The notes beneath the pieces are model-generated. The model was given only the letters and a program-made list of their open reading frames with translations, was not told where the DNA came from and searched no databases. From positions 1 to 64,000 of the forward strand of contig CALVGN010000030.1 of assembly GCA_944327105.1 (NCBI GenBank): a DNA stretch of 64,000 nucleotides. The letters run 5' to 3'. The translations under genes and the position numbers were made by a program. Shown piece after piece: positions 3,483-60,014 of this stretch. This DNA is from an uncultured Erysipelotrichaceae bacterium. Its GTDB lineage: Bacteria; Bacillota_I; Bacilli_A; Erysipelotrichales; Erysipelotrichaceae. Every line of letters begins with the position of its first letter. Position 1 is the stretch's first letter.

Positions 3483-6400
3483 TCAATTTGAAGTGGTCGC
3501 TTCGGAACTATCGGATGGATTTTTTGATATTTCCGCCATTCCATTATTCGTTTCATTCGTTTCTTCGGATGGCGAAATTTCCGTTCCATCCGATTCCTTA
3601 TCGACCTGTTCAACACCTTCCGTGCTGACTGGACGCTCATCCTCTTCGTCTTTATCTGCTTCGTCTTTGGTTAAAGTTTCGACCAAATCATTAATGGTCA
3701 GTTTGATCCGATTGCGAATGGACGTCTGTTCAAATGTAAAACTACGTGTCTCATTGGCTTGAGTGATACCTTGGCGAACCGTCGCACTACGGACTTCAAA
3801 CAAATCTGAATATACCGTACCGTCGATATCAATCGTTTCATAAATCATGATTTTGTATTCACCCGGTGGTACATCAGTTAAATCAAAGGATGCTTGATAA
3901 GCTGAATTGGTCACTGTAAACCCATTGGTACCACTGATTGGCAATGCCGTATCCCCTGCGCTCCATTGCACATTGCCTTCATAGAATTGACCATCTTCAC
4001 TGGATACCAGATAAATTTGGCCGCTGGGGATGGTGGAATCATCAATATCCAGAATACGGATATAGGCATTTCCTGAGAATGTCAGTGTTTGTTGATCCAT
4101 ATCAAACGCATAATCATTGACCGTGATGGTCGACGTTTGACGGGAAGGTTTATTGATCACAAAATCCGTTAAATCCACCATACTGGCTTCTTTGTTGATT
4201 TCGACACGATAACCATAATCATAATTTTCTGTCAATTCAAACATCGTACCACCAGTTTCAGTGGATCCAATATATTCATTGATCAATGCGTCTTTATTGT
4301 TCGAATACAAAATCGATGAATTGGTGATACCACTGTTGGTTACCGTGATTTCGACCGTATAGACACTATTGGGGATGGTGGATGTATCGATCGATGCGTG
4401 ATATGCAATATAGTCATATCTGAAATCACCATTGGGGAATCCCTGATCATACATGCCGATACTGGCATCGAGCGGATATCCTTGTCCATCAGGATCATTG
4501 CGATCGATCAAACGGATCGAAATGGAAATATCATCCGCCATATCTTCCGTCGCATTGATATTGGTCAAATAAGCCAATCCATGGATCGACAAAATCGTTC
4601 CATCCATATCCGCACCATTGAGCGTACTCATCAAAATGTGTGGTAACTCATTTTCGTCCGGTGTGTCGGGTTGTTCGGGTTCTTCCGGAACGACCGGGAC
4701 ATTGCCATCCGGCAATTCTTCGCTGTTATCACTGATCAGCATGTAGGTGATCCCATCATCGCGATTTTCAAAATGGATCGTATGATCATCGACTTCGATA
4801 TCTGACGGTAATTCAGCCAAGGAACCAATCAGGTGATCAGTATCATTATATTGATCGTAATAACCATAATTCGTCGAGACAGTGAACTTGTATTCACCGT
4901 TTTCAAGTGTGCTCAAATCGACAGTAGCTTTAAAATGACCAACTTCATCCTTTTCGACAGTTGTTTCACTTTCGATCACGGTACCGGAGTAATACGCATC
5001 GATCATTGTAATCTGATGCGTCAATGTATTGGTGTCATTGACCGTTATGCCTGGTCTGTATGCGGTACCGGAAATCGTTAATATATGATCCTGGATACTC
5101 AATGTCGGTACGAAATTGAAATCTCCAGTCGGTACGGAACCTTCCGGTACCCTATCCGTATTGGACGCATCATTGATGATCATGATGTCACTGCTGCGGG
5201 TATAGACTTGAGAAGCGTTCCAGTCATAGGTGATAAAACCATTGGAAACAATGTTTCCATTTTCGACCTTGTTGTTGCATTGCCATTTGGTCCATTCACC
5301 TTCCGTGGATAAAATCGGAATGATGTATGCTTCCTGATAACCGGATTTATTGGCGGTGGAAAATAACTGATGGCTGCCTGGGTTGAGATCCACTGCAGCA
5401 TTGTAAGTCGTGATCAAACCACGAGATACCGTGTTGTAATCGACCAAATCAGCGCCATGGCTGTAGGCATCCATTTGATAATACAAACTGGCGATTTTTA
5501 AACCCCAGTACGTGTCTGCCGCATATTTGACGTTGGCTCCACTGCCCTTATTACCAAGATGTGCACCAAAGAAACGGGTATCCTTGATATCCGAATAATC
5601 CTTGAGATAATAACCCATCATCTGGTTGATGCATTCCTGAACACTTTGAAAATGCGTCGCACTGTCCGGGTTGGAATCATAGGCACTGATACCAAACAGG
5701 TTATTGCGTTGAATGGCATATTGGCTCGTGCCATAGCCACTTTCCAAAATGGCAATTGCCAGCACGATAGCCGCATTGATCCCATATTTATTCTGGGCGT
5801 CTATAAAATACTGACCTGTTCCTTTTAAAACGCTGGTTCGACCATTGACCCCTTGGTCAATAAATCGATTCAGTTCATCCGCTGTCAGATTCGTTTTACT
5901 GCGAAATGGCAGATATTGATAGTAATTGTAATAGGTAAAACTATGATTTTTGCATGCACGATCCGTATAAAACGTGTAACCATCGTACGAATAATATGTC
6001 CCATTGGCGACATTTTCAGGCACCGGTCCGAGTACATGCGTATATGTCGCCGGATCCCCGTTGGCACTCCAGCCGCTGCTCCACGTAAAACTGAGCAACT
6101 TTTGACCGTTAGATTCGTAGACATTGTAATGACTTTGCTTGATTTTAGTCGCAAAGGGCTGTTCGTTGGCAGCGGTGGTATCATGTCCGCCTAATGTCAC
6201 GGTTTTACCATTATCGACCCACGCCCAAGGGATCAAGTCGACTTCTTTTAATTCGACATAACCATTAAATCCATTGACGGATACGGCGATCTGACCGTCC
6301 TGACCGGTGGCCCAATTGGTCCAACCATATAACATCTCCCGGTGTTTGGTCGCATAGGTCGTTGCACTGTTGCCATTGGACCAATGGCTCAGATCCAATG

Positions 6401-6743
6401 TAGTCTTGCCGGAACGCATCGGATAGGTATAGACCAATCCGCCATGCATCATCACGATTTTGCTGGGAGATAGATTATCTCTGGCACGCACCACATAATT
6501 TGTGCTGGAATTCATGTGATGCTGAGCATCCGCAAGTTCATTTGTACAATAAATATTGCTTAATGTCCCATCGCTGTTGGCTTGATCCACGCTGTATAGC
6601 GTCGAGCATGCATAGGGATAGGAACCAGCAGCCTCGACGGTTTCAGTTTTTTCTAAAATCGCATAGGAAAAAACTGACAAGCCCATACCGAGTGCCAGTA
6701 ATGAATTGGATAGTGATTTCAACCTTTTGAACAGATTAGGCAT
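3483..6743 (-). CDS. Secreted N-acetylglucosaminidase with repeated C-terminal beta domains
   Basis: The 1086-residue protein has a basic and hydrophobic signal peptide (residues 1-39). Residues about 285-430 form a glucosaminidase domain (PF01832 type) with probable catalytic Glu334 in AILESGYGTS; this family cleaves the glycan strand of peptidoglycan. After it come two or three Ig-like beta segments with recurring MIDAYYSG / ISIRLIDRN / IYLVSSEDG strands. The tail is acidic, rich in D, E, S and T, with no LPxTG or membrane anchor, so release or non-covalent wall binding is likely. The ATG overlaps the end of the upstream membrane protein gene by 8 bp, pointing to translational coupling. It is the last gene before a strong terminator. 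Confidence 0.82.
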   Translation of the reverse strand: MPNLFKRLKSLSNSLLALGMGLSVFSYAILEKTETVEAAGSYPYACSTLYSVDQANSDGTLSNIYCTNELADAQHHMNSSTNYVVRARDNLSPSKIVMMHGGLVYTYPMRSGKTTLDLSHWSNGNSATTYATKHREMLYGWTNWATGQDGQIAVSVNGFNGYVELKEVDLIPWAWVDNGKTVTLGGHDTTAANEQPFATKIKQSHYNVYESNGQKLLSFTWSSGWSANGDPATYTHVLGPVPENVANGTYYSYDGYTFYTDRACKNHSFTYYNYYQYLPFRSKTNLTADELNRFIDQGVNGRTSVLKGTGQYFIDAQNKYGINAAIVLAIAILESGYGTSQYAIQRNNLFGISAYDSNPDSATHFQSVQECINQMMGYYLKDYSDIKDTRFFGAHLGNKGSGANVKYAADTYWGLKIASLYYQMDAYSHGADLVDYNTVSRGLITTYNAAVDLNPGSHQLFSTANKSGYQEAYIIPILSTEGEWTKWQCNNKVENGNIVSNGFITYDWNASQVYTRSSDIMIINDASNTDRVPEGSVPTGDFNFVPTLSIQDHILTISGTAYRPGITVNDTNTLTHQITMIDAYYSGTVIESETTVEKDEVGHFKATVDLSTLENGEYKFTVSTNYGYYDQYNDTDHLIGSLAELPSDIEVDDHTIHFENRDDGITYMLISDNSEELPDGNVPVVPEEPEQPDTPDENELPHILMSTLNGADMDGTILSIHGLAYLTNINATEDMADDISISIRLIDRNDPDGQGYPLDASIGMYDQGFPNGDFRYDYIAYHASIDTSTIPNSVYTVEITVTNSGITNSSILYSNNKDALINEYIGSTETGGTMFELTENYDYGYRVEINKEASMVDLTDFVINKPSRQTSTITVNDYAFDMDQQTLTFSGNAYIRILDIDDSTIPSGQIYLVSSEDGQFYEGNVQWSAGDTALPISGTNGFTVTNSAYQASFDLTDVPPGEYKIMIYETIDIDGTVYSDLFEVRSATVRQGITQANETRSFTFEQTSIRNRIKLTINDLVETLTKDEADKDEEDERPVSTEGVEQVDKESDGTEISPSEETNETNNGMAEISKNPSDSSEATTSN

Positions 6744-24378: not shown

Positions 24379-25326
24379 CTAGAAGTCCACCCGATCGATT
24401 TCCTTGCCGATCACGATAAACAGACGGCTCTCATCGTTTTCAACACAGGTCTGCAAGGTGACGAATGAATCGCCGTCATGGATCGGCACATCGGTTTCAA
24501 TGAAGTCGCCATATTCATTTTCGATGCGATCCATATAATCGCTCAATTGTTCGGCCGTGTAATTGGGATTAAACGGGCAATTCAGATAATCGGTCAATGC
24601 ATCACCGGTTGTGTTGTAGCTTGCTTTTTCATAATAGAACGCATGGGCAACCTGATAGGTGCGCTGCTGACCGTTAAACGTCAATGTGAAGGTATCATAT
24701 TGATCATAGACACTGGGATCACACAATGTATCCAATGGGGTAAACTTCAGATTGTCCTGTTCATAACGGTATTCATAGACATAATGACCATAAATGATCA
24801 GATTCTGATCCATCGGTATACCGTTTTCATCCAATGTATTGGCGGCATCCATGAATTCCTGGCCATACGATACGTCCTGATGGTTGATATCCGTGCGCAG
24901 ATATTGCGCATTGCCGGAATTGACCAGTGCGGCAAATTCTGGATTGGACATATCCCGGTTTTCTGTGATCTGATCAGCATAGCTGGAACGCACGATCACA
25001 TGGGGATATTGATCCACGGTATGGGAATCATAGTTGTATAACAGATCGTTTTCCCATTCCAGATAGGCTACATAATCACTGTTTAAATCATGATATTTTT
25101 GATAAATGGGGTCATACACGGAAGCCAGGGATGGATCGGATGAAGCAATAGGAGTGGTTGAAACCACTGGTTGCTCACTCGGTTTTTGCTCACTCGGTTT
25201 TTCTGGATTCAACCATGAATAAATGCCATATCCGATTCCACCGGTCAGTGCAATCGCCACAATGATCCCAACAGTAACAATGATTTTACCAGTTTTCGAT
25301 AAACGACGATGTCTGTGTTTGGCCAT
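24379..25326 (-). CDS. Class B-like sortase
   Basis: A 315-residue protein with a basic N-terminus, one membrane helix (about residues 13-37) and a Pro/Glu/Ser linker. The sortase core has catalytic His in LIIYGHYV, Cys294 in VTLQTCVEN and Arg301, the TLxTC-x6-R spacing of class B. Sortases transpeptidate surface proteins onto peptidoglycan or pilin. It starts one base after the trmD stop, using an AAGGAGG formed by trmD's last codons, so it is co-translated with the rimM-trmD operon. Its substrate is not in the immediate neighbourhood. Confidence 0.85.
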   Translation of the reverse strand: MAKHRHRRLSKTGKIIVTVGIIVAIALTGGIGYGIYSWLNPEKPSEQKPSEQPVVSTTPIASSDPSLASVYDPIYQKYHDLNSDYVAYLEWENDLLYNYDSHTVDQYPHVIVRSSYADQITENRDMSNPEFAALVNSGNAQYLRTDINHQDVSYGQEFMDAANTLDENGIPMDQNLIIYGHYVYEYRYEQDNLKFTPLDTLCDPSVYDQYDTFTLTFNGQQRTYQVAHAFYYEKASYNTTGDALTDYLNCPFNPNYTAEQLSDYMDRIENEYGDFIETDVPIHDGDSFVTLQTCVENDESRLFIVIGKEIDRVDF

Positions 25327-25327
25327 A

Positions 25328-26062
25328 CTAATCCTCCTTGGATTCCATAAAAGATGCCTGATTGTCACATAGTTGATTCAATTCCCTTTCCAATTCCGCA
25401 TTCCACATATCCTTACGGAATTTTTTGGTATTGACCAGACTATTATAGCGTTTCCATTGTTGGATTTTACCATGATTTCCGTTGGTCAAAACATACGGAA
25501 CGCTTTTAGCGTCAAATACAAGCGGACGGGTGAATTGATCATATTCCAGTGTATCGGCTGAAAACGATTCATTGGATAAGGATTGAGCATTGATCACACC
25601 AGGGATCAGACGAGTGATGGAATCCACGATCACCATGGCACCCAGTTCACCACCGGTCAGAATATAATCCCCGATGCAGAAACGATAATCGCAATAATCA
25701 TAGATGCGGGCATCGTAGCCTTCATAATGACCACATAATAAAATCAAATGATCACAAGTTTCGGCAATGTTGCGGGCATCATGTTGGGTATACAGTGGTG
25801 CGACCGGAGTTAAAATGGCGACTTTGCTGTTGGGAGTGGAAACATCATCGATGGCGCGTTTGGCCACATCGACGCGTAAAACCATTCCCGTGGCTTCCGA
25901 ATAAGGCGCACCGTCGACATGACCATAGGTATCGATGGCATAATTGCGCAGATAGACGATTTCGATTTCTACCAGATCCTTATTTTGGGCACGTTTGAGG
26001 ATGGATTCATTGAAGTAGGCTTCCATCATCTGTGGAAACAACGTCAAAACTGTAAACTTCAT
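25328..26062 (-). CDS. trmD: tRNA (guanine-N1)-methyltransferase
   Basis: A 244-residue SPOUT enzyme methylating G37 next to the anticodon. Seen: FTVLTLFPQMMEAYF, YSEATGMVLRVD, the trefoil-knot region LCGHYEGYDARI and GDYILTGGELGAMVIVDSI. It overlaps rimM by ATGA. Length is normal. Confidence 0.96.
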   Translation of the reverse strand: MKFTVLTLFPQMMEAYFNESILKRAQNKDLVEIEIVYLRNYAIDTYGHVDGAPYSEATGMVLRVDVAKRAIDDVSTPNSKVAILTPVAPLYTQHDARNIAETCDHLILLCGHYEGYDARIYDYCDYRFCIGDYILTGGELGAMVIVDSITRLIPGVINAQSLSNESFSADTLEYDQFTRPLVFDAKSVPYVLTNGNHGKIQQWKRYNSLVNTKKFRKDMWNAELERELNQLCDNQASFMESKED

Positions 26063-51201: not shown

Positions 51202-51681
51202 TTATGATTTGGATTGTGACTCCGATTTTTCGGGGTATCGTGTTACCCAGAATTCGGAAACATTGATCACTAACAATGCCCGTCGGGCAGATTCATGATC
51301 GGCCTGCCACTGGTTGAGTTGAAAGTATCCGCAGACTAATACCCTGCATCCTGGAACCAACGCTTTCCCCATTCGTTCGGCAACACGGCCAAAGCCACTG
51401 ATTTTGATGGTGGTATAGGTGTTTTCCTTATCCGTATTGGTAAACACGCAATCCAGATCCGCATCCATCGCTTCCAAAACACGATCTATCTGATTGGATT
51501 GATTGATCAGATTCATATAGACACTGCAGATCGGCAATTCCTCCCCTTCATCATTTTTAAATGTGCGGGAAACGATATCCTTGCTTTTGGATACGAATCC
51601 TTCGGCCACAACGTAATGACGGTTGGCTTGACCATTGAACACGTGCAGTTTGGAATAAGTTTTTTTGGTTTGATTTTTCAT
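51202..51681 (-). CDS. SSB-like OB-fold protein, divergent
   Basis: A 159-residue protein: VVAEGFVSKSKDIVSRTF, ICSVYMNLINQ, TIKISGFGRVAERMGKAL, CRVLVCGYFQLNQWQ, LLVINVSEFWVTRYP. The strand spacing fits an SSB-type OB fold with a short basic lead and a Ser/Lys-rich tail, not the DDDIPF tail of replicative SSB. It follows the sortase gene and may belong to that operon or be independent (GAGGAG before ATG). Role unknown; DNA binding is inference. Confidence 0.6.
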   Translation of the reverse strand: MKNQTKKTYSKLHVFNGQANRHYVVAEGFVSKSKDIVSRTFKNDEGEELPICSVYMNLINQSNQIDRVLEAMDADLDCVFTNTDKENTYTTIKISGFGRVAERMGKALVPGCRVLVCGYFQLNQWQADHESARRALLVINVSEFWVTRYPEKSESQSKS

Positions 51682-51720: not shown

Positions 51721-52491
51721 TCATTTTTGATTTTTGCGGGCAATGAGAATATATCGATTGGATTTATCGTCTTGATCACAGGTGACAAAAGATAGATATC
51801 GATCTGCGGACAGATCGATATCTCGTTTATGCAAGATATATGGTTCATCTTGAATCAGATACTGATTCAATGCTGTTGCCTCGATATGTGTATTCAAAAA
51901 CACCGCAGCAGTTTGGATGGATTCGTTCATCGGATAATGTGCGAATGCAATGATCGTATAGGTGCTTGATCCAAGATCATCGAACCATCGGAATGTAGAA
52001 TTGGCATTAAAATAATCCGCAGATCGATAATTGAGCATAAATGTAAACATCCGTTGGTTGGAAAAAGAGGAATGGCCATTGATCAGCAAGTGATTGGAAC
52101 TATCCTGATTTGGTGTATGCTCATCGACGAATGCACTGCCCAATGAACTGGGATTGCCATAAATGTCATGACTCATCCAATAATCGGCATCCGCTGTGGA
52201 GAATGTTTCGACAACAGGAACTCTGTACGTACCGTCCGAATTATCAAAATGAACGATGGCCATTACATACGGATTGATGGCCTGAAACTCATCCAATCCA
52301 TAAGGACGTGATGTCGTTTCCGGTTCTTCGGCCGGATGGTCCAACACAACAGCAGCGTGATCCATATCCGTTTGCACAATGTCATCACTACAAAATGTGG
52401 ATAAAACCATAATCGTAATAAAACAAACGGTCATAACCAGTGTCCATTTGACCCATCGCCGCAAACGGCGTCTATGTTTTCGTTGTTTCAT
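51721..52491 (-). CDS. Class B-like sortase of the adhesin module
   Basis: A 256-residue protein with a very basic start (KQRKHRRRLRRW), one membrane helix, and a sortase core with His in HLLINGHSS, Cys238 in LSFVTCDQDD and Arg246. TC-x7-R spacing fits class B. Its ATG overlaps the stop of a 29-codon membrane ORF (ATGA-type), which overlaps the Cys-rich gene before it, so the four genes form one translationally coupled set with the giant adhesin. This sortase is probably dedicated to that surface protein. Confidence 0.82.
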   Translation of the reverse strand: MKQRKHRRRLRRWVKWTLVMTVCFITIMVLSTFCSDDIVQTDMDHAAVVLDHPAEEPETTSRPYGLDEFQAINPYVMAIVHFDNSDGTYRVPVVETFSTADADYWMSHDIYGNPSSLGSAFVDEHTPNQDSSNHLLINGHSSFSNQRMFTFMLNYRSADYFNANSTFRWFDDLGSSTYTIIAFAHYPMNESIQTAAVFLNTHIEATALNQYLIQDEPYILHKRDIDLSADRYLSFVTCDQDDKSNRYILIARKNQK

Positions 52492-52577
52492 TTTAGATTA
52501 CGATTGATCAGAATCATCCATATCAAAAACAAAGCGGATGCAAACCAGACCACCCAAATCATCCCATCATCGAGCAT
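52488..52577 (-). CDS. 29-residue single-pass membrane peptide
   Basis: ATG 52577 opens a short frame overlapping the previous stop by 11 bp and ending in TGA that overlaps the sortase ATG. The product starts MLDDGMIWVVWFASALFL and ends NRNLK: two acidic residues, one continuous hydrophobic helix of about 20 residues, and a basic end, a clean N-out/C-in single-pass pattern. It fills exactly the gap between two coupled genes. No homologue is known to me; it might assist the sortase or adhesin. Confidence 0.5.
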   Translation of the reverse strand: MLDDGMIWVVWFASALFLIWMILINRNLK

Positions 52578-53112
52578 TACTCAAATACCTCAATAGCAGT
52601 AATATGCCGATGGTCAACTGTACAATGATCATTCCATATAAACCGATTCGAACCGCAGTATTCAACTGCGGTTCGATTAAAGCGTCTGCATGGACGATGA
52701 TGGTCGATTCATCTGATTTGTCCGATTCCAGGATCATATCGTTTCGATTGGTTGCACTGATCACACTGCTTTGCGCTCCAATAACGGTGTTGTCCAAAAT
52801 ACACTCACCATTTCCCCAAATCAATTGATCATTCGCATCAAAGATATTGCCACATTCATCCATGGTATAAACCACTTCCTCACTCGTTTCGATGATCCAT
52901 TGCGGTTCGCAAGATGAGCAAAGCGATGGCGCATATGGCTCACCCAGTTTTGAATCCATCGTAACTTCAGTGAGAAAATAATCATTTTGGGTTGGGATCT
53001 CATTTAAATAGCGGGGCAATGCACACTGATTCAGCTCACACACATACCCTTGTTGACAATCCGAGTCATAACGGCAGAAATCATGATCCATTGTTTCATT
53101 TGTTTCGTCCAT
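52567..53112 (-). CDS. Cys-rich protein with C-terminal membrane helix
   Basis: A 181-residue protein. Residues 8-32 have an EB/EGF-like cysteine pattern (FCRYDSDCQQGYVCELNQC), then CSSCEPQW and further Cys near residues 105-125, an acidic region, and a C-terminal helix (IGLYGMIIVQLTIGILLLL) with a basic end. There is no N-terminal signal peptide, odd for a disulfide-type domain. ATG 53112 follows CAGGAG. The gene overlaps the giant adhesin's end by 17 bp in the +1 frame. It looks like a separate anchor or wall-linking subunit for the adhesin. No family recognised. Confidence 0.6.
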   Translation of the reverse strand: MDETNETMDHDFCRYDSDCQQGYVCELNQCALPRYLNEIPTQNDYFLTEVTMDSKLGEPYAPSLCSSCEPQWIIETSEEVVYTMDECGNIFDANDQLIWGNGECILDNTVIGAQSSVISATNRNDMILESDKSDESTIIVHADALIEPQLNTAVRIGLYGMIIVQLTIGILLLLRYLSNAR

Positions 53113-56100
53113 TTGAAACTCCTGTATACAGATAATCCCAACGATACCAATCCAATGCACAATCACTCAATTCAAAAGTGTCAGCCATCGCACGCAATCG
53201 CAATGTCTGATAACGCACGAAGCGGTACCCGCGTTTTTTACGTCGATAGCGAATGATCCGTTCATTGCGTTTGTAATGGTTTACGGAATCAAATGAAACA
53301 GATGGTTCAAGTATCATGGTCTCACAAACCGGATCATGCAGATAATTGAGTGGGGAGCGGATCTCACACCATTGCAGTGAACTGCCATAATCGATATCAG
53401 AGAGATCCATACGGCCCGGGTTGCATTGAAGCATTTTTGTTTCCCCGACTGCATCGATAACCAATTCGTTTGGATCATGATCACTTAAATCACCCGTAAT
53501 GGTCTCACCATTGGCATCTTTGACGTTTACCTTACGGTAATACCATGTCCCACGACGGTACGCATTTTCACCGTTTTCATTTTCGAATAACGGAATAAAC
53601 AAAATCTCACCGTTTTCGTTGGTTTGAGCGTAATACGGTGATTCAAACTGAGCATCCTGAGCGAATTGATAGGTCACATATTGCATCGGAACATCATCAT
53701 AATTGGTGGCGATCATCAATTCATCCTTGGACCCATTGTATTCATGGGTACCATCCGTGTAGAGAATGTGTTGATTTTCTGTGCCGTTGAACCAAATATC
53801 CGTAATGGTATAGACCACATCATCATTGGTAAACGTATCTCCTTTTTTTGGATCTGAAAGCAATTCCAGTAACGTTGAGTATTCCAATGGATTGATGAAC
53901 CGATACTCTGTTTCATGGATATAGATGCCACCGGAAAGCAACGTAGCGATTTTGGTCCGTGGCTGGACCATTGGTGTCTGTGGATCGTCACAGCTTTGAT
54001 AATCACACATGTTTTCACCTTCATACGTGACATCATAGATCTCAAACAATGCACCATTGAGCAACGTTTTGGCATCATCCGAATCGATTTTGTAGGCTGT
54101 GACATCAATATCCCGTTTTTGATTGGTCAAGGTAACGGATTGATGGTCAATGCCAACGGTATATCCCATGGTTTCATCCACCGTAAATGTATGGCAGATA
54201 TCCTGGGATGGTTCGACCATGTAACCTGTGGGTGGTACAATTTCACAAGCCATATAAGTTTGCCCATATTTCAGATTCTCGATGGTCAAACCACCCGGTT
54301 GATGATTGACTTCAAATTCCTGCAGCATCATCACCCCCGGCATCTTCCAATAATAGGAACCATCCGGTAAATGGGATACATCCACCACACCCATGTTGTC
54401 ACTGCGTAGCGTTTCGATGGGATATAACCCATCCGGATCTTCATAGATCGTCACACTGTAATCGGGTAAGGGACGGTTGTGATCATCGATATCCACCGTT
54501 CGTAAATAAACACCACCGCTGACGCCATGAAATATTGGGTAAAAGTCTTTTTGAATTAAGGAATTTACAGCGTCAGCGGTAGTCAAACAATCAATGACGG
54601 CCTTTACGGTATATGGGGTTTGGGGAGTGGCCTGATCATTGATGAAGCATTCGTTACTGATCACATCACAATAGGTGATGGATGCAATGGTTGAACCATT
54701 TGTCGTTAATGATTCGACCCGATACTCATGATCCATATATTCAAATATCCCCTTGAGTACCAAGGGGATATTTGTGTTGATTTCATTGATCTTTTCCAGA
54801 CTCAATGGTGTCTTTTTCAACGTTGTCCAGGATTGATCCATTTCATCGCTATAGATGATTTTTTCATCATCGATCGAATGGATGATGATGGTTTGACCAT
54901 CCACTTCAATGGGCTCGTTGACTGGTAAGTCCTTCAATTGATCATATGGGATCGCTAATGGCTCAACTGATTCAATCAATTTCAGTTGAAATGCAGATGG
55001 ATAAGTCAGTGTCAGCATCGTCCCATCCAATGTTCCGATCGGCTGACCATTGACTAACGGTGCATCCAATATGATGGTTTGACCATCTTCCATCTCGAAT
55101 AAATCCGATATATCCACTTTTTGATTCAACGGGAAGAATGTCATGGTCTTTAATGCATTGCCCAAAGGCAATGCATCCAACGTAAAGCGTGTTCCCTTTT
55201 CATCAACCAAAACGATATGATCGGCATCATAGGTTTCGATGGTATAACCATATTCTTCATGATTGTGAATCAATATAACACCACCGTTATACCCAAATGG
55301 AATATCCATTTGATCCAACTGAGCTTTGACCATGGTATACGTCAATTCGAATGATTGCTGGGGAATCAATATGTCAAACATATTGGTGGAAAGCTGCAGA
55401 TCATCCATCGTCGTTTGATCATAACGGCTAACCGCATCGATCCAATACATGTATTCATTCCCTGCCGAATCCATCAATGTTCCCAAATAATGTGGATCCA
55501 TGATGGATTGGTTGAACCATGTATAACTCGTTCCATCGATTTCAATGGTCAAACCATCATAAAATCCGGAATAATTCAGATTTGAAATATCCGGTGCATC
55601 ACTGTCTTCCAAAAGGAATGTCGTCGTCACATTGGGATACTGCTGCTGATCCTTTACGTGAGCAAGCCAATGCTGGTTACCATATTCGATTGCAAATGCA
55701 TCATCGACTTCGATCGGACGTGGTTTTGACAAGGTAAACGATTCACCTTCATTGACCGACCATAAACTTTTCAAGTCTTCCCAATTGAATGGATGCGTTT
55801 GGATCAGATCCATGGAGACTCCATGAAAATCGATCATCTGACCATCATTGTTCGTATCCACATTGATATATGTGACGGATTCGTTTTTATCCGGATCATA
55901 ACAAAAGCCGATCAATGCATCCTTTTGATACGGATAAGTAATGAAATACTGATCGTACGCACTATCCAGTCGTGCAATAAATGCCGGTTGTATCACATTG
56001 GTGCATTCCCATTGCACGATATATTCATATTCTGGTCCAATCAAGGGATGCATCGAATCCACCACATGCTGATTACCACTCACATCTTGGACCGTAATGG

Positions 56101-58942
56101 AAATGATATTGTTTGAATCATCGATGGTGGCATCGATCAATTGGTAAACCTGATCTTCAATGGTGTATTCGAGGATGTCTTGCTGATAAAGCGGAAGCAG
56201 TGTTTCAAATCCAACGGGATCATGAACGGTTTTGACATAACTTCGTTCAATGATCGAACCATTACTGATCAGATCGGTTTGCCATGGAAACAGGGATTGT
56301 ACCGTTTCAAAGGATAGCCAGGGATTTGGTGTATCTGCACTGACATTGATGGTTAAACCATTGATATCGGATTGATCCGATATCGCGGTAAATTCATATT
56401 GTGGTTTGATCACCTGATACATGGTATAACCATAGGATTGTTCGATCGTTTCTGGTAAATCTGACTCATTTAATGGTGGATTTTCCACGGTGAAACGGTA
56501 TTCGATCGTATCTTCCAATACGATCGATTCAATGGTTGGATCAGCCACAATATCAACGATCTTTATCGCGTTACCATTCCATGTAATGGTTTGACCAATA
56601 GCGTCATGGCTATCATCCAGTCCCATGGCTTCGATCTGATCCATCAGTGATCGAAAATCATCATCCTTTTCGTCAACATGGATCAATTGTCTGTATTGTG
56701 CATCCACAACCGCTTGAAATGGCGTGATTTCAACCAACGTGTAATTGTCCTGTTCCATCTCATGGACTTCACCCACATTCCAGTTTGATACATCCTCGTA
56801 ACTTAACGGATATTGATCCGCGATATAAAGTAACCCGTTTTCATCTTCAACGATCATTGCATCATCCCTTTTCATGCGCAGAATGTAGGATATGCCATTG
56901 ACCGTGAATGTATCATTCACCGAAATATCCTCTGGGATCATCGTTTCACTCAGATCGATCCTTGCCAGATTGTCCACATTGGTCACACCAATGACCACAC
57001 GGTCGGATAATATCGAATTTACACGATAGAGATGGTTTTGCCAGATGAATAGATCATTCACCTGATAATTTGGCAGAATGGATATCAATGTCGAATAATC
57101 CATACACATGGTTTCACTGATACCTTCCTGTGGTATTCCGTCATTGGATGCATTGGTCAAACCAATAGGCAAACCCTGGTCATAATGAACTTCTCCATCA
57201 TGCGGCACTTCAAAAACCACCCATTCCGCACCATCCAAATACACCTTGTCCATGGTTTGATCCATCTTATAAACGGTTAAATCCACATCTCGATTCAAAT
57301 TCATATACGAGTAATGTGAACTTTCATTTAAATCTATCCGGTATGGTATCGTATTGACCACATATCCCTGATGAGCGTCAATTTCTCGAATCCAATACAC
57401 ACCCGGTTCTGTATTTAAGATCGTCGAATATCCATCCACCGGCAACAATTGATCGATGTGCAATGCACCATCACTGCCTACCGTCCACACCGTACCCGCC
57501 TGCTTGGTCTCAAATTTGCGTGTATCCCGATTGTAAATACTGCAACTGCCCGATACATTCAACGCCAGACTGTCTTCCTCACTAACCAATCCAACATCAC
57601 AATTCGGAACAATCAGATGAGTGAATTTTTCATCATATGCGATCTGAAATGTCGTTCCTGGTAACGCCGTGATCGCATATTCATCCACTTTATCAACGGT
57701 GAGATCTTGCGTATTGGATACGATATTCAATTCCGCATCTTCGATTGGATCGGGCAATCGACCACCCAAAAGATCCTGACTGCCCGGTTTGGTCATCAAC
57801 AACATGGCCTCAACCGCCGCATAATACCCACCGGCATTACTTTTGACCCGCACCGGTTTGACGTTTTCAAACAACGTATCGTATTTGACGTGCAGATTAT
57901 TGTCATCATCGATATACGGATAACCCGGGGCAAAGTTCTTTGAGGTCGCCGTATCATCGATTTCATAATAGGTGCTTAACACACGATTGCCATCAGGGAT
58001 GATGCATTCGGCATTGAACGGACATTTGATGGTCGTACCATGAAATGATGGTTGGGTGCGCAATTCAACGATATCATTGAGGATTTCTGCTTTTTGGGCA
58101 CTGATATCTATGGAAGAACCATCCATCAATGTGATGCCATCGATATAATAGCCCAACACTTCCCAGATCAAGATCTGGGTGGCAATGAAATAATCCACCG
58201 TGTTTTTACCATCGAATCCATAACCAAACGACATGATCTGCGAAATCTTGAGTAGATTATCAAAGCTGATCTTGTCAAACGTGATGGTACTGCCGATATA
58301 CCCTTCCCCATCATGGAATAACGTGGTTGGATCAATGCAATAATAGACAAAACCGGAATCATCGAAATGAAATTGGGTAATGTAGCCAAAATGGGGCGAT
58401 GTATACTGTGCAACACGATCGCCTGTTACGATCGCATTGGTTAAAATACCCTGATCCAACTGTTTTAGCATAGAAAAAACTGCTTCGGATTGCTCGATTC
58501 GTTCCCATTTCATCCCATACTCACTTTCACTGCGTTCGATGATCTGATCAACATGACTGGGTTGTTGAGTATTTGAATCCATCGTTTCTGCCGGGTGATT
58601 GGTTTCGCTTGCTTCCTTTGAAGCGGATGGTTCGACCATGGGTTCAGATGATTCAGTCGGTACGATCGTCTCAGACGGGATTATGGATTCCTCTGGGATC
58701 GGTGAAACCGATGGTGTTGGAATCGTTGATTCTACGGGTATGGGGACGATTGTTTCTGCCACGGACGTTTCAGGTAAATTGGTTGTTACAGGTAAATCCG
58801 TATCTACGGCAGGTTCACTTTGCTTTTGATCCAAAACAGGTGAAAGCATCGGATCAGCGATATCAAAATGGAATGCCGATACCTGATTGAGTTCAAGTAA
58901 CAACACTAGACCCATCAATATCAGACGAATGATTGTTTTCAT
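53096..58942 (-). CDS. Giant thioester-domain surface adhesin (1948 residues)
   Basis: The N-terminal signal peptide (residues 1-23) is followed by a Pro/Ser/Thr/Glu stalk (40-125). Residues about 175-290 form a thioester domain: Cys202 in YYCIDPTT and Gln256 in IATQILIWE are the expected Cys-Gln pair that binds host surfaces covalently. Then come SpaA/CnaB-type segments (LTVDKVDEYAITALPGTTF, LTVYKMDQTMDKVYLDGAEW, VTAYKIDSDDAKTLLNGALF). Between about 600 and 1550 lies a long run of degenerate beta repeats rich in NDTFTVNG or DGQTI motifs. The C-terminus is basic (RYRRKKRGYRFVRYQ) with no LPxTG, membrane helix or other anchor. AAAGGAG precedes the ATG. It carries ten exact palindrome copies. 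Confidence 0.82.
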   Translation of the reverse strand: MKTIIRLILMGLVLLLELNQVSAFHFDIADPMLSPVLDQKQSEPAVDTDLPVTTNLPETSVAETIVPIPVESTIPTPSVSPIPEESIIPSETIVPTESSEPMVEPSASKEASETNHPAETMDSNTQQPSHVDQIIERSESEYGMKWERIEQSEAVFSMLKQLDQGILTNAIVTGDRVAQYTSPHFGYITQFHFDDSGFVYYCIDPTTLFHDGEGYIGSTITFDKISFDNLLKISQIMSFGYGFDGKNTVDYFIATQILIWEVLGYYIDGITLMDGSSIDISAQKAEILNDIVELRTQPSFHGTTIKCPFNAECIIPDGNRVLSTYYEIDDTATSKNFAPGYPYIDDDNNLHVKYDTLFENVKPVRVKSNAGGYYAAVEAMLLMTKPGSQDLLGGRLPDPIEDAELNIVSNTQDLTVDKVDEYAITALPGTTFQIAYDEKFTHLIVPNCDVGLVSEEDSLALNVSGSCSIYNRDTRKFETKQAGTVWTVGSDGALHIDQLLPVDGYSTILNTEPGVYWIREIDAHQGYVVNTIPYRIDLNESSHYSYMNLNRDVDLTVYKMDQTMDKVYLDGAEWVVFEVPHDGEVHYDQGLPIGLTNASNDGIPQEGISETMCMDYSTLISILPNYQVNDLFIWQNHLYRVNSILSDRVVIGVTNVDNLARIDLSETMIPEDISVNDTFTVNGISYILRMKRDDAMIVEDENGLLYIADQYPLSYEDVSNWNVGEVHEMEQDNYTLVEITPFQAVVDAQYRQLIHVDEKDDDFRSLMDQIEAMGLDDSHDAIGQTITWNGNAIKIVDIVADPTIESIVLEDTIEYRFTVENPPLNESDLPETIEQSYGYTMYQVIKPQYEFTAISDQSDINGLTINVSADTPNPWLSFETVQSLFPWQTDLISNGSIIERSYVKTVHDPVGFETLLPLYQQDILEYTIEDQVYQLIDATIDDSNNIISITVQDVSGNQHVVDSMHPLIGPEYEYIVQWECTNVIQPAFIARLDSAYDQYFITYPYQKDALIGFCYDPDKNESVTYINVDTNNDGQMIDFHGVSMDLIQTHPFNWEDLKSLWSVNEGESFTLSKPRPIEVDDAFAIEYGNQHWLAHVKDQQQYPNVTTTFLLEDSDAPDISNLNYSGFYDGLTIEIDGTSYTWFNQSIMDPHYLGTLMDSAGNEYMYWIDAVSRYDQTTMDDLQLSTNMFDILIPQQSFELTYTMVKAQLDQMDIPFGYNGGVILIHNHEEYGYTIETYDADHIVLVDEKGTRFTLDALPLGNALKTMTFFPLNQKVDISDLFEMEDGQTIILDAPLVNGQPIGTLDGTMLTLTYPSAFQLKLIESVEPLAIPYDQLKDLPVNEPIEVDGQTIIIHSIDDEKIIYSDEMDQSWTTLKKTPLSLEKINEINTNIPLVLKGIFEYMDHEYRVESLTTNGSTIASITYCDVISNECFINDQATPQTPYTVKAVIDCLTTADAVNSLIQKDFYPIFHGVSGGVYLRTVDIDDHNRPLPDYSVTIYEDPDGLYPIETLRSDNMGVVDVSHLPDGSYYWKMPGVMMLQEFEVNHQPGGLTIENLKYGQTYMACEIVPPTGYMVEPSQDICHTFTVDETMGYTVGIDHQSVTLTNQKRDIDVTAYKIDSDDAKTLLNGALFEIYDVTYEGENMCDYQSCDDPQTPMVQPRTKIATLLSGGIYIHETEYRFINPLEYSTLLELLSDPKKGDTFTNDDVVYTITDIWFNGTENQHILYTDGTHEYNGSKDELMIATNYDDVPMQYVTYQFAQDAQFESPYYAQTNENGEILFIPLFENENGENAYRRGTWYYRKVNVKDANGETITGDLSDHDPNELVIDAVGETKMLQCNPGRMDLSDIDYGSSLQWCEIRSPLNYLHDPVCETMILEPSVSFDSVNHYKRNERIIRYRRKKRGYRFVRYQTLRLRAMADTFELSDCALDWYRWDYLYTGVSNGRNK

Positions 58943-59006: not shown

Positions 59007-60014
59007 CTAAAAACCGGGAATCGTGGCCACTGCATTGCCTTCCTGGTCAAACCATGTCAATGTATACCCGTTTCCTTGTGTCAAACAGGAATAACCGCTG
59101 GCATTGTCAGGTTTTCCCTGATCCGCTTCACCCGCAGCCACACAAGCATCCATGCCCTGGTTGAACGCATCGGTTTCACCCATGTTGATGTTATATCCCC
59201 AATCTGGTTCATCCCATCCACTTGGATCAGTAGTGTCATTCGAGGCAACCGGTGGTGCACTCCATTGCTGCTCAGGTTGAGATTGGGGTTGATTCCACGA
59301 TTCATCCGATGATTGTTCTACCGTGGCTGAAACGGTCGGGGTTGAGTGCGGACGAGGGGTCGGCTGAATCACGATCGCACTGCATCTGCTCCATCCATCC
59401 CCTTCATATCCGTCATTACAGACACATGTCTCTCCATTAAAATACGCATTATCACCACAAACTGGCGCATGTTGAATCACTTCAAAATTCACTGCACTGC
59501 AATTTCCGCTTTCATCGCAGACATTGGCTGAAATGGTTTGATATTGATCGACAATAGATGGATCAAATCCAACGATGATCTCCACCGTCGTCAAACCATT
59601 GGAGTTATCATCAACTTGGATATATTGCGTTGCATCAAACGATTCGCCCCATTCCAATTCGATCTGCTCTAAAGCCAATTCCACTTCCGGAGCTGTCGTA
59701 TCAATAAAGCGTACCGGAACATTAGCATTCAATGTCAACCAATCTGATTTAAATCCAATTTCACATGTGTATGTGATGTTGACCTGCGGTGTGTTGATTC
59801 CTGCTCCAGAGTCATCGAACAATTGAATCGAGATATCATCGCAATTCTCACAATGGATATACGCATCCAATGGGGTGTTGATTTCAACATTATCCATATT
59901 GTCGATGCTGTAACGCGGATAAATCATATACAAGTAAAACAGTCCGCACACTAGAAGCATGCATGCACATAATCCAACGAACAACCATCGGTGTTTGTTA
60001 ATCCATATATCCAT
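59007..60014 (-). CDS. Membrane-anchored extracellular protein with Ig-like and EGF-like domains
   Basis: A 335-residue protein with an N-terminal membrane helix (WLFVGLCACMLLVCGLFYLYM), a beta domain with DTTAPEVELALEQIELEWGE (bacterial Ig/DUF5011-like pattern), an EGF-like module (CGDNAYFNGETCVCNDGYEG), then a Pro/Ser/Gln-rich linker and a short C-terminal domain with two Cys. ATG 60014 gives the membrane helix directly at the N-terminus; the longer frame is not supported. It is the first gene of the surface cluster, ended by its own terminator, so it may be transcribed separately from the adhesin. Role unknown. Confidence 0.62.
   Translation of the reverse strand: MDIWINKHRWLFVGLCACMLLVCGLFYLYMIYPRYSIDNMDNVEINTPLDAYIHCENCDDISIQLFDDSGAGINTPQVNITYTCEIGFKSDWLTLNANVPVRFIDTTAPEVELALEQIELEWGESFDATQYIQVDDNSNGLTTVEIIVGFDPSIVDQYQTISANVCDESGNCSAVNFEVIQHAPVCGDNAYFNGETCVCNDGYEGDGWSRCSAIVIQPTPRPHSTPTVSATVEQSSDESWNQPQSQPEQQWSAPPVASNDTTDPSGWDEPDWGYNINMGETDAFNQGMDACVAAGEADQGKPDNASGYSCLTQGNGYTLTWFDQEGNAVATIPGF

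Follow-up and report, generated by a model that had tools for sequence, protein, structure and literature searches.

Here, we describe an adhesin locus in the genome of an uncultured Erysipelotrichaceae gut bacterium (assembly GCA_944327105.1), located in the first 64,000 nucleotides of contig CALVGN010000030.1; this whole stretch is referred to below as the window. The locus encodes a large secreted adhesin with a thioester domain (TED) and SpaA domains, together with a class B-like sortase dedicated to it and a partner membrane protein of Ig-like type. Our preferred reading, which we regard as probable, is that these proteins form a system in which the sortase acts on a substrate lacking a C-terminal transmembrane (TM) helix, the closest proven model being AbpA/SrtB of Streptococcus parasanguinis and S. 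gordonii. The genes of the locus are:

53096..58942, minus strand: adhesin, 1948 aa, TED/SpaA, with a signal peptide and without a C-terminal membrane helix
52567..53112, minus strand: Cys-rich acidic protein, 181 aa, with a C-terminal membrane helix and without a signal peptide from ATG 53112
52488..52577, minus strand: 29-codon open reading frame (ORF), single hydrophobic helix
51721..52491, minus strand: class B-like sortase with His140, Cys238 and Arg246, falling among the sortases of TM-less adhesins
59007..60014, minus strand: Ig-like/EGF-like single-pass membrane protein, conserved partner of TED adhesin loci by tblastn and hidden Markov model (HMM) searches

From the adhesin to the Cys-rich gene, the 29-codon ORF and the sortase, consecutive genes overlap by 17, 11 and 4 bp, respectively. 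These four genes, all on the minus strand, and their overlaps had been correctly placed in an initial annotation, which missed the Ig-like gene located 64 bp upstream of the adhesin.

Sortase phylogeny and the C-termini of related adhesins

The strongest sign that the window adhesin may be a TM-less sortase substrate is the clade of its sortase, which is independent of the C-terminal alignment described below. In a maximum likelihood tree of 35 sortases, those encoded beside TM-less adhesins were separated from those beside TM-anchored adhesins with support of 99/97. The window sortase at 51721-52491 fell within the TM-less clade with support of 100/98, beside the group associated with adhesins ending in RKMG[DE], and the anchor-type labels required 2 changes on the tree versus a mean of ~10 after shuffling. 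The other sortase of the window (24379-25368, minus strand), also class B-like and with no adhesin adjoining, grouped with the TM-anchored set. The host genome (1.6 Mb in 59 contigs) yielded only two class B-like sortases in all; the Pfam Sortase model gave no match there, missing even the window sortases, and is uninformative on further ones. The class B-like assignment proposed initially is provisional: the catalytic residues are present and the class B model TIGR03064 matches (E=4.4e-19), but with a score of 68.7 bits that is under the cut-off of 153.75. The closest solved sequences are 5b23, a sortase B (E=1.2e-11), and Lmo2181 (5jcv). In sequence class and catalytic residues the protein also resembles the class B sortases Spy0129 (PMC3019223) and Clostridium difficile SrtB (PMC4155245), which act on pilus or adhesin substrates; in the published descriptions of these substrates, however, the motif is followed by a hydrophobic domain.

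The adhesin itself has the body of a thioester adhesin. Its signal peptide, MKTIIRLILMGLVLLLELNQVSA, is of the Sec-exported type, and Pfam matches were obtained for TED (E=1.1e-6) and SpaA (E=3.5e-20):

58118..58345, minus strand: thioester domain (Cys202, Gln256), by Pfam TED and PDB 6fx6 alignment
57305..57706, minus strand: SpaA domain (prealbumin-like, CnaB-type), by Pfam
54158..54301, minus strand: further SpaA domain, closer to the C-terminus, by Pfam

The thioester residues, Cys202 within YYCIDP and Gln256 within IATQILIWE, fall on the TED residues of SaTIE (PDB 6fx6, E=6.6e-8). Two hallmarks of TIE/TED adhesins, the Cys/Gln thioester domain and the CnaB/SpaA stalk, are present; the usual though not universal ending of LPxTG plus a hydrophobic C-terminus is absent, inspection of the C-terminal sequence having revealed neither of the two. 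In all these respects the initial description of the adhesin was accurate.

RKMG-type relatives were found in Solobacterium and other Erysipelotrichaceae metagenome-assembled genomes, several of them from sheep gut. In these loci the adhesin gene, ending in RKMG[DE], overlaps or abuts the sortase start with no gene between. The last ~100 residues of the window adhesin were aligned with ten RKMG-type adhesins, and in two MAFFT alignments RLRAMAD of the window adhesin landed on RIRKMGD of the relatives. The columns invariant between the window adhesin end and the RKMG group are Cys, SPL, Cys and Asn. The end of the adhesin is accordingly divided as follows:

53180..53200, minus strand: RLRAMAD, a degenerate version of the C-terminal motif that reads RKMG[DE] in relatives, by MAFFT alignments
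53099..53179, minus strand: C-terminal extension, 27 residues that follow the motif and resemble coding sequence of the adhesin frame as far as ~53145

Residues running on past the motif are also seen in L130 and L154. An LPxTG-like signal in the adhesin, which by the initial annotation would speak against a separately encoded anchor, is half present, in the form of this degenerate sortase-like motif. YLYTG within the last 12 residues was considered as a sorting motif and rejected, having no support from relatives. The AlphaFold 2 (AF2) model of the C-terminus was of low confidence (mean predicted local distance difference test score, pLDDT, 50.2) and too weak for a fold search.

The ends of TED adhesins were also surveyed across the family. 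TED domains were present in 104 of 273 Erysipelotrichaceae genomes, and C-termini were classified at ~115 TED loci, where 61 complete adhesins had a C-terminal helix and 40 did not. A class B-like sortase was found beside or near 21 of the 40 no-helix adhesins versus 11 of the 61 with a helix (Fisher p=4e-4, indicative only since the loci are related by descent). A short sortase-like motif within a few residues of the end, as in VPNTGV, LPEMGEKR, VPKMGLD, IRKMGED and IPNTSDK, occurred in 20 of 34 clear no-helix adhesins versus 25 of 1206 ORFs (all ORFs >150 aa in those loci); this contrast is descriptive, as the regular expression [hydrophobic][P/R]x[T/M][G/S/A] was written after seeing the sequences. 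The premise that thioester adhesins are normally single LPxTG proteins does not fit this family, in which many lack a helix, and precedents exist in TIEpLS20 (PMC8092201) and AbpA/SrtB (PMC4974636). In L023, L027, L090 and L092, adhesins ending in VPNTGV and their sortase lie near SSB-like, ParA-like and other genes of plasmid or integrative and conjugative element type, which recalls the conjugation adhesin TIEpLS20. One 2.8 Mb genome (G143) has twelve TED domains, and the proteins that were read carry an LPxTG-like motif and a helix.

The protein encoded at 59007-60014 contains a membrane helix, an Ig-like part, an EGF-like part and a small C-terminal domain. By tblastn it matches proteins beside TED adhesins in L031, L032, L089, L098 and L101, and an HMM of the Ig-like protein gave 42 matches, mostly <1 kb from a TED adhesin or its sortase. 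The homologues are placed upstream of the adhesin in some loci, whereas those of the RKMG group follow the sortase on its downstream side, and they also accompany TM-anchored adhesins. This recurrence indicates a conserved set consisting of the adhesin, the sortase and the Ig-like membrane protein.

Comparison with AbpA/SrtB and other thioester adhesins

In S. parasanguinis and S. gordonii, the TM-less AbpA, which ends in LPKTSAVK, is anchored by the neighboring class B sortase. Its C-terminus, KAGKALPKTSAVK, is required for SrtB-dependent wall anchoring, and the C-terminal LPKTS plus three residues was shown experimentally to suffice. The authors held abpA-srtB to be limited to oral streptococci (PMC4974636), and searches of the open-access literature yielded no further TM-less sorting signal. 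The window adhesin is likewise secreted and without a C-terminal helix, with a class B-like sortase in the same cluster, and its relatives carry the motif a few residues from the end (VPNTGV, LPEMGEKR, IRKMGED). By contrast, AbpA is a small (~207 residues), helical amylase binder and not a TED/SpaA protein, whereas in the window locus the motif is degenerate and followed by 27 extra residues, and two genes separate the adhesin from the sortase. The TIE adhesins SaTIE, BaTIE and TIEpLS20 share the signal peptide, thioester domain and CnaB-type stalk; most of them carry LPxTG and a helix, unlike the window adhesin (PMC6194298, PMC8092201). TIEpLS20 also lacks both and so shows that a TED adhesin can function without an anchor, but its plasmid has no sortase gene and its attachment is unknown (PMC8092201).

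Several observations weigh against the proposed TM-less substrate system. The window adhesin has no clean motif: RAMAD has Ala where Gly is usual, and 27 residues follow it, compared with no more than ~6 in most relatives. No short sortase motif is present within ~10 residues of the C-terminus, unlike in the 20 no-helix relatives counted above. The long branch of the window sortase (1.68) leaves its exact place within the supported clade uncertain. In AbpA, the T of the motif could not be replaced by A or S (PMC4974636). As the clean motif is missing, we do not file the window adhesin as a proven member of the AbpA/SrtB type.

If the preferred reading is right, the neighboring sortase of the relatives would cleave a short motif of the T-G or M-G type (between the two residues) a few residues from the adhesin end and link the cleaved adhesin to an amine, either in the wall or on a second subunit; the substrate would not be held by any hydrophobic domain. 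In the host genome, the motif would have drifted to RLRAMAD followed by the 27-residue extension, and two small genes lie between adhesin and sortase. The degenerate motif could also mark a decaying locus, with the adhesin merely secreted and the sortase serving other substrates. Candidates for such substrates exist: at least seven other C-termini in the genome carry QLVxT (described in the last section), and only two class B-like sortases were detected. This scenario is nevertheless very improbable: the 1948-codon adhesin ORF is uninterrupted with a strong coding signal, none of the thioester or catalytic residues has been lost, and the sortase clusters with those of TED adhesins.

The Cys-rich gene and the micro-ORF

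The Cys-rich gene lies between the adhesin and the sortase and has the following features:

53119..53123, minus strand: Shine-Dalgarno AGGAG, 6 nt before ATG 53112
53023..53076, minus strand: DX/EB-like Cys motif, CRYDSDCQQGYVCELNQC, PF01666 E=0.011, below cut-off
52801..52869, minus strand: juxtamembrane Cys module YTMDECGNIFDANDQLIWGNGEC, shared with other surface proteins of the genome, by profile search
52588..52650, minus strand: C-terminal membrane helix, then RYLSNAR, by sequence and AF2 (helix 149-180, pLDDT up to 96)

In agreement with the initial annotation, the gene overlaps the adhesin by 17 bp and encodes a protein with a C-terminal membrane helix and, from ATG 53112, no signal peptide. 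Only 19 of 3425 ATGs in the window (0.6%) have AGGAG 5-8 nt upstream, this one among them, which makes a chance start unlikely. An alternative start at GTG 53166 would add a hydrophobic N-terminus; it was rejected, as it has no ribosome site and no positive charge, and codon preference there favors the adhesin frame. Codon preference favors the adhesin frame as far as ~53145 and, from ~53115 onward, that of the Cys-rich gene, so that the overlap is not the product of an upstream frameshift; such a frameshift is also ruled out by the alignment of the tail to relatives. The EGF/EB-like Cys domain proposed initially survives as a DX/EB-like motif, and a Pfam identity was rejected on the sub-threshold match.

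Several large surface proteins in the host genome carry, close to their C-terminus, a module GPFTxxECGxVYDRWGNLIYxxxxC, of which YTMDECGNIFDANDQLIWGNGEC, in the second half of the Cys-rich protein, is a diverged copy. A profile of the module ranked the Cys-rich ORF first of 741 window frames (E=1.6e-4; E=3.1e-4 in another search). In L212, a 771-aa surface protein of the host genome, the module is followed by a linker and a membrane helix, the same order as in the Cys-rich protein, and in related genomes it likewise stands just before a linker and membrane helix in L217 and L180-L182. Since the module is shared with membrane-proximal ends, the Cys-rich protein resembles a membrane-anchor end with a gene to itself. 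The AF2 model of the whole protein (mean pLDDT 48.9) was too weak for a fold search. Its N-terminal 150 residues include 30 acidic (D/E) and 5 basic (K/R) residues, and a strongly acidic N-terminal part would suit N-tail translocation.

In the initial annotation, the adhesin and the Cys-rich protein were seen as a split adhesin/anchor pair; in this account the membrane protein would be a subunit holding the adhesin, e.g. through disulfides or as an amine acceptor for the sortase. The absence of a membrane anchor and the loss of a clean sorting motif from the adhesin, the DECGN..LIW..C module known from membrane-proximal positions, the intervening gene position with a good ribosome site, and the dedicated class B-like sortase agree with such a pair. 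However, no relative has the Cys-rich gene at this place. The four-gene arrangement was not conserved: the same four genes were found in no close relative by an adhesin scan of genome contigs, the Cys-rich gene has no full-length homologue in the 273 Erysipelotrichaceae genomes, the micro-ORF was found in no relative, and in the RKMG type the sortase abuts the adhesin. A same-genus relative of the host was absent from the genomes listed. Export of the N-terminal domain without a signal peptide is also unexplained, apart from its acidity. We therefore hold a split anchor to be unlikely.

The Cys-rich ORF could alternatively be the adhesin's own C-terminal anchor, which would be reached by +1 frameshifting within the overlap, or would be cut off only by a recent mutation or a mistake in the assembly. 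The two frames can be joined only within 53096-53166, and in the fused protein the Cys module would be exported and followed by linker, membrane helix and basic tail, the usual order that L212 also shows. A precedent for joined genes is L109:2252-8611 (minus strand; identical to L254, JAFWCM010000155.1), in which one ORF, ..TVKVRKMGE-MPKKTTAAVMIAMGL.., covers both a TED adhesin and a class B-like sortase, probably through a lost stop. The Cys-rich ATG has its own AGGAG, though, no +1 slippery site is recognizable, and RKMG-type relatives end here without such a module. No relative was found with the adhesin and Cys-rich protein as one ORF, an arrangement by which the initial annotation's split could have been explained away. 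A single polypeptide is thus quite doubtful. Read-through that would turn the sortase N-terminal helix into the missing anchor was rejected as well, because the topology would place the catalytic domain inside.

Within the preferred TM-less substrate system, the Cys-rich protein is most likely an accessory membrane stub near the sortase. The sortase start overlaps the 29-codon ORF in an ATGA without a Shine-Dalgarno sequence, which suggests translational coupling, and the micro-ORF most likely serves to couple translation to the sortase. Directly downstream of the sortase, the window encodes an SSB-like OB-fold protein (51202-51681, minus strand; Pfam SSB E=1.8e-5, just under cut-off).

A second candidate signal and its implications

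At least seven surface-type C-termini of the host genome end in [FY]QLV[NASL]T[SAIEN]D[KRHQ] with no membrane helix. The ORFs with this ending are in L215 (C10), L214 (C12), L216 (C15), L239 (C24) and L213 (C26, three ORFs). The proteins are Sec-exported where the N-terminus is seen and contain Ig-like, SpaA or FctA domains. As the ending follows differing domains, it probably acts as a signal at the terminus and does not belong to any single domain; judged from sequence, [FY]QLVxTxD[KRHQ] is a candidate mini sorting signal, and it resembles the LPKTSAVK end of AbpA. A glucosaminidase-domain protein of 1086 aa encoded at window 3483-6743 (minus strand) has an acidic, Ser/Thr-rich tail without a membrane anchor or QLVNTSD motif.

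A bolder proposal, which we regard as tentative and on balance improbable, is that TM-less mini signals (terminal VPNTGV, RKMG[DE] and [FY]QLVNTSD[KRHQ]) and a matching class B sortase clade are widespread in Erysipelotrichaceae, and that in this lineage a separate membrane stub with the Cys module has taken on the task of holding the adhesin close to the membrane ahead of sortase action.

Textbook sortase substrates combine a motif, a hydrophobic domain and a charged tail; the exception reported for AbpA was held to be confined to oral streptococci. From the pattern described here, sortase substrates of the TM-less kind would seem to be common in Erysipelotrichaceae as well, on large thioester adhesins and with an accompanying sortase clade. 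Annotation by LPxTG plus a helix would miss such wall proteins and call the adhesins simply secreted. The pattern also offers a possible answer to the question of how anchorless thioester adhesins stay on the cell.

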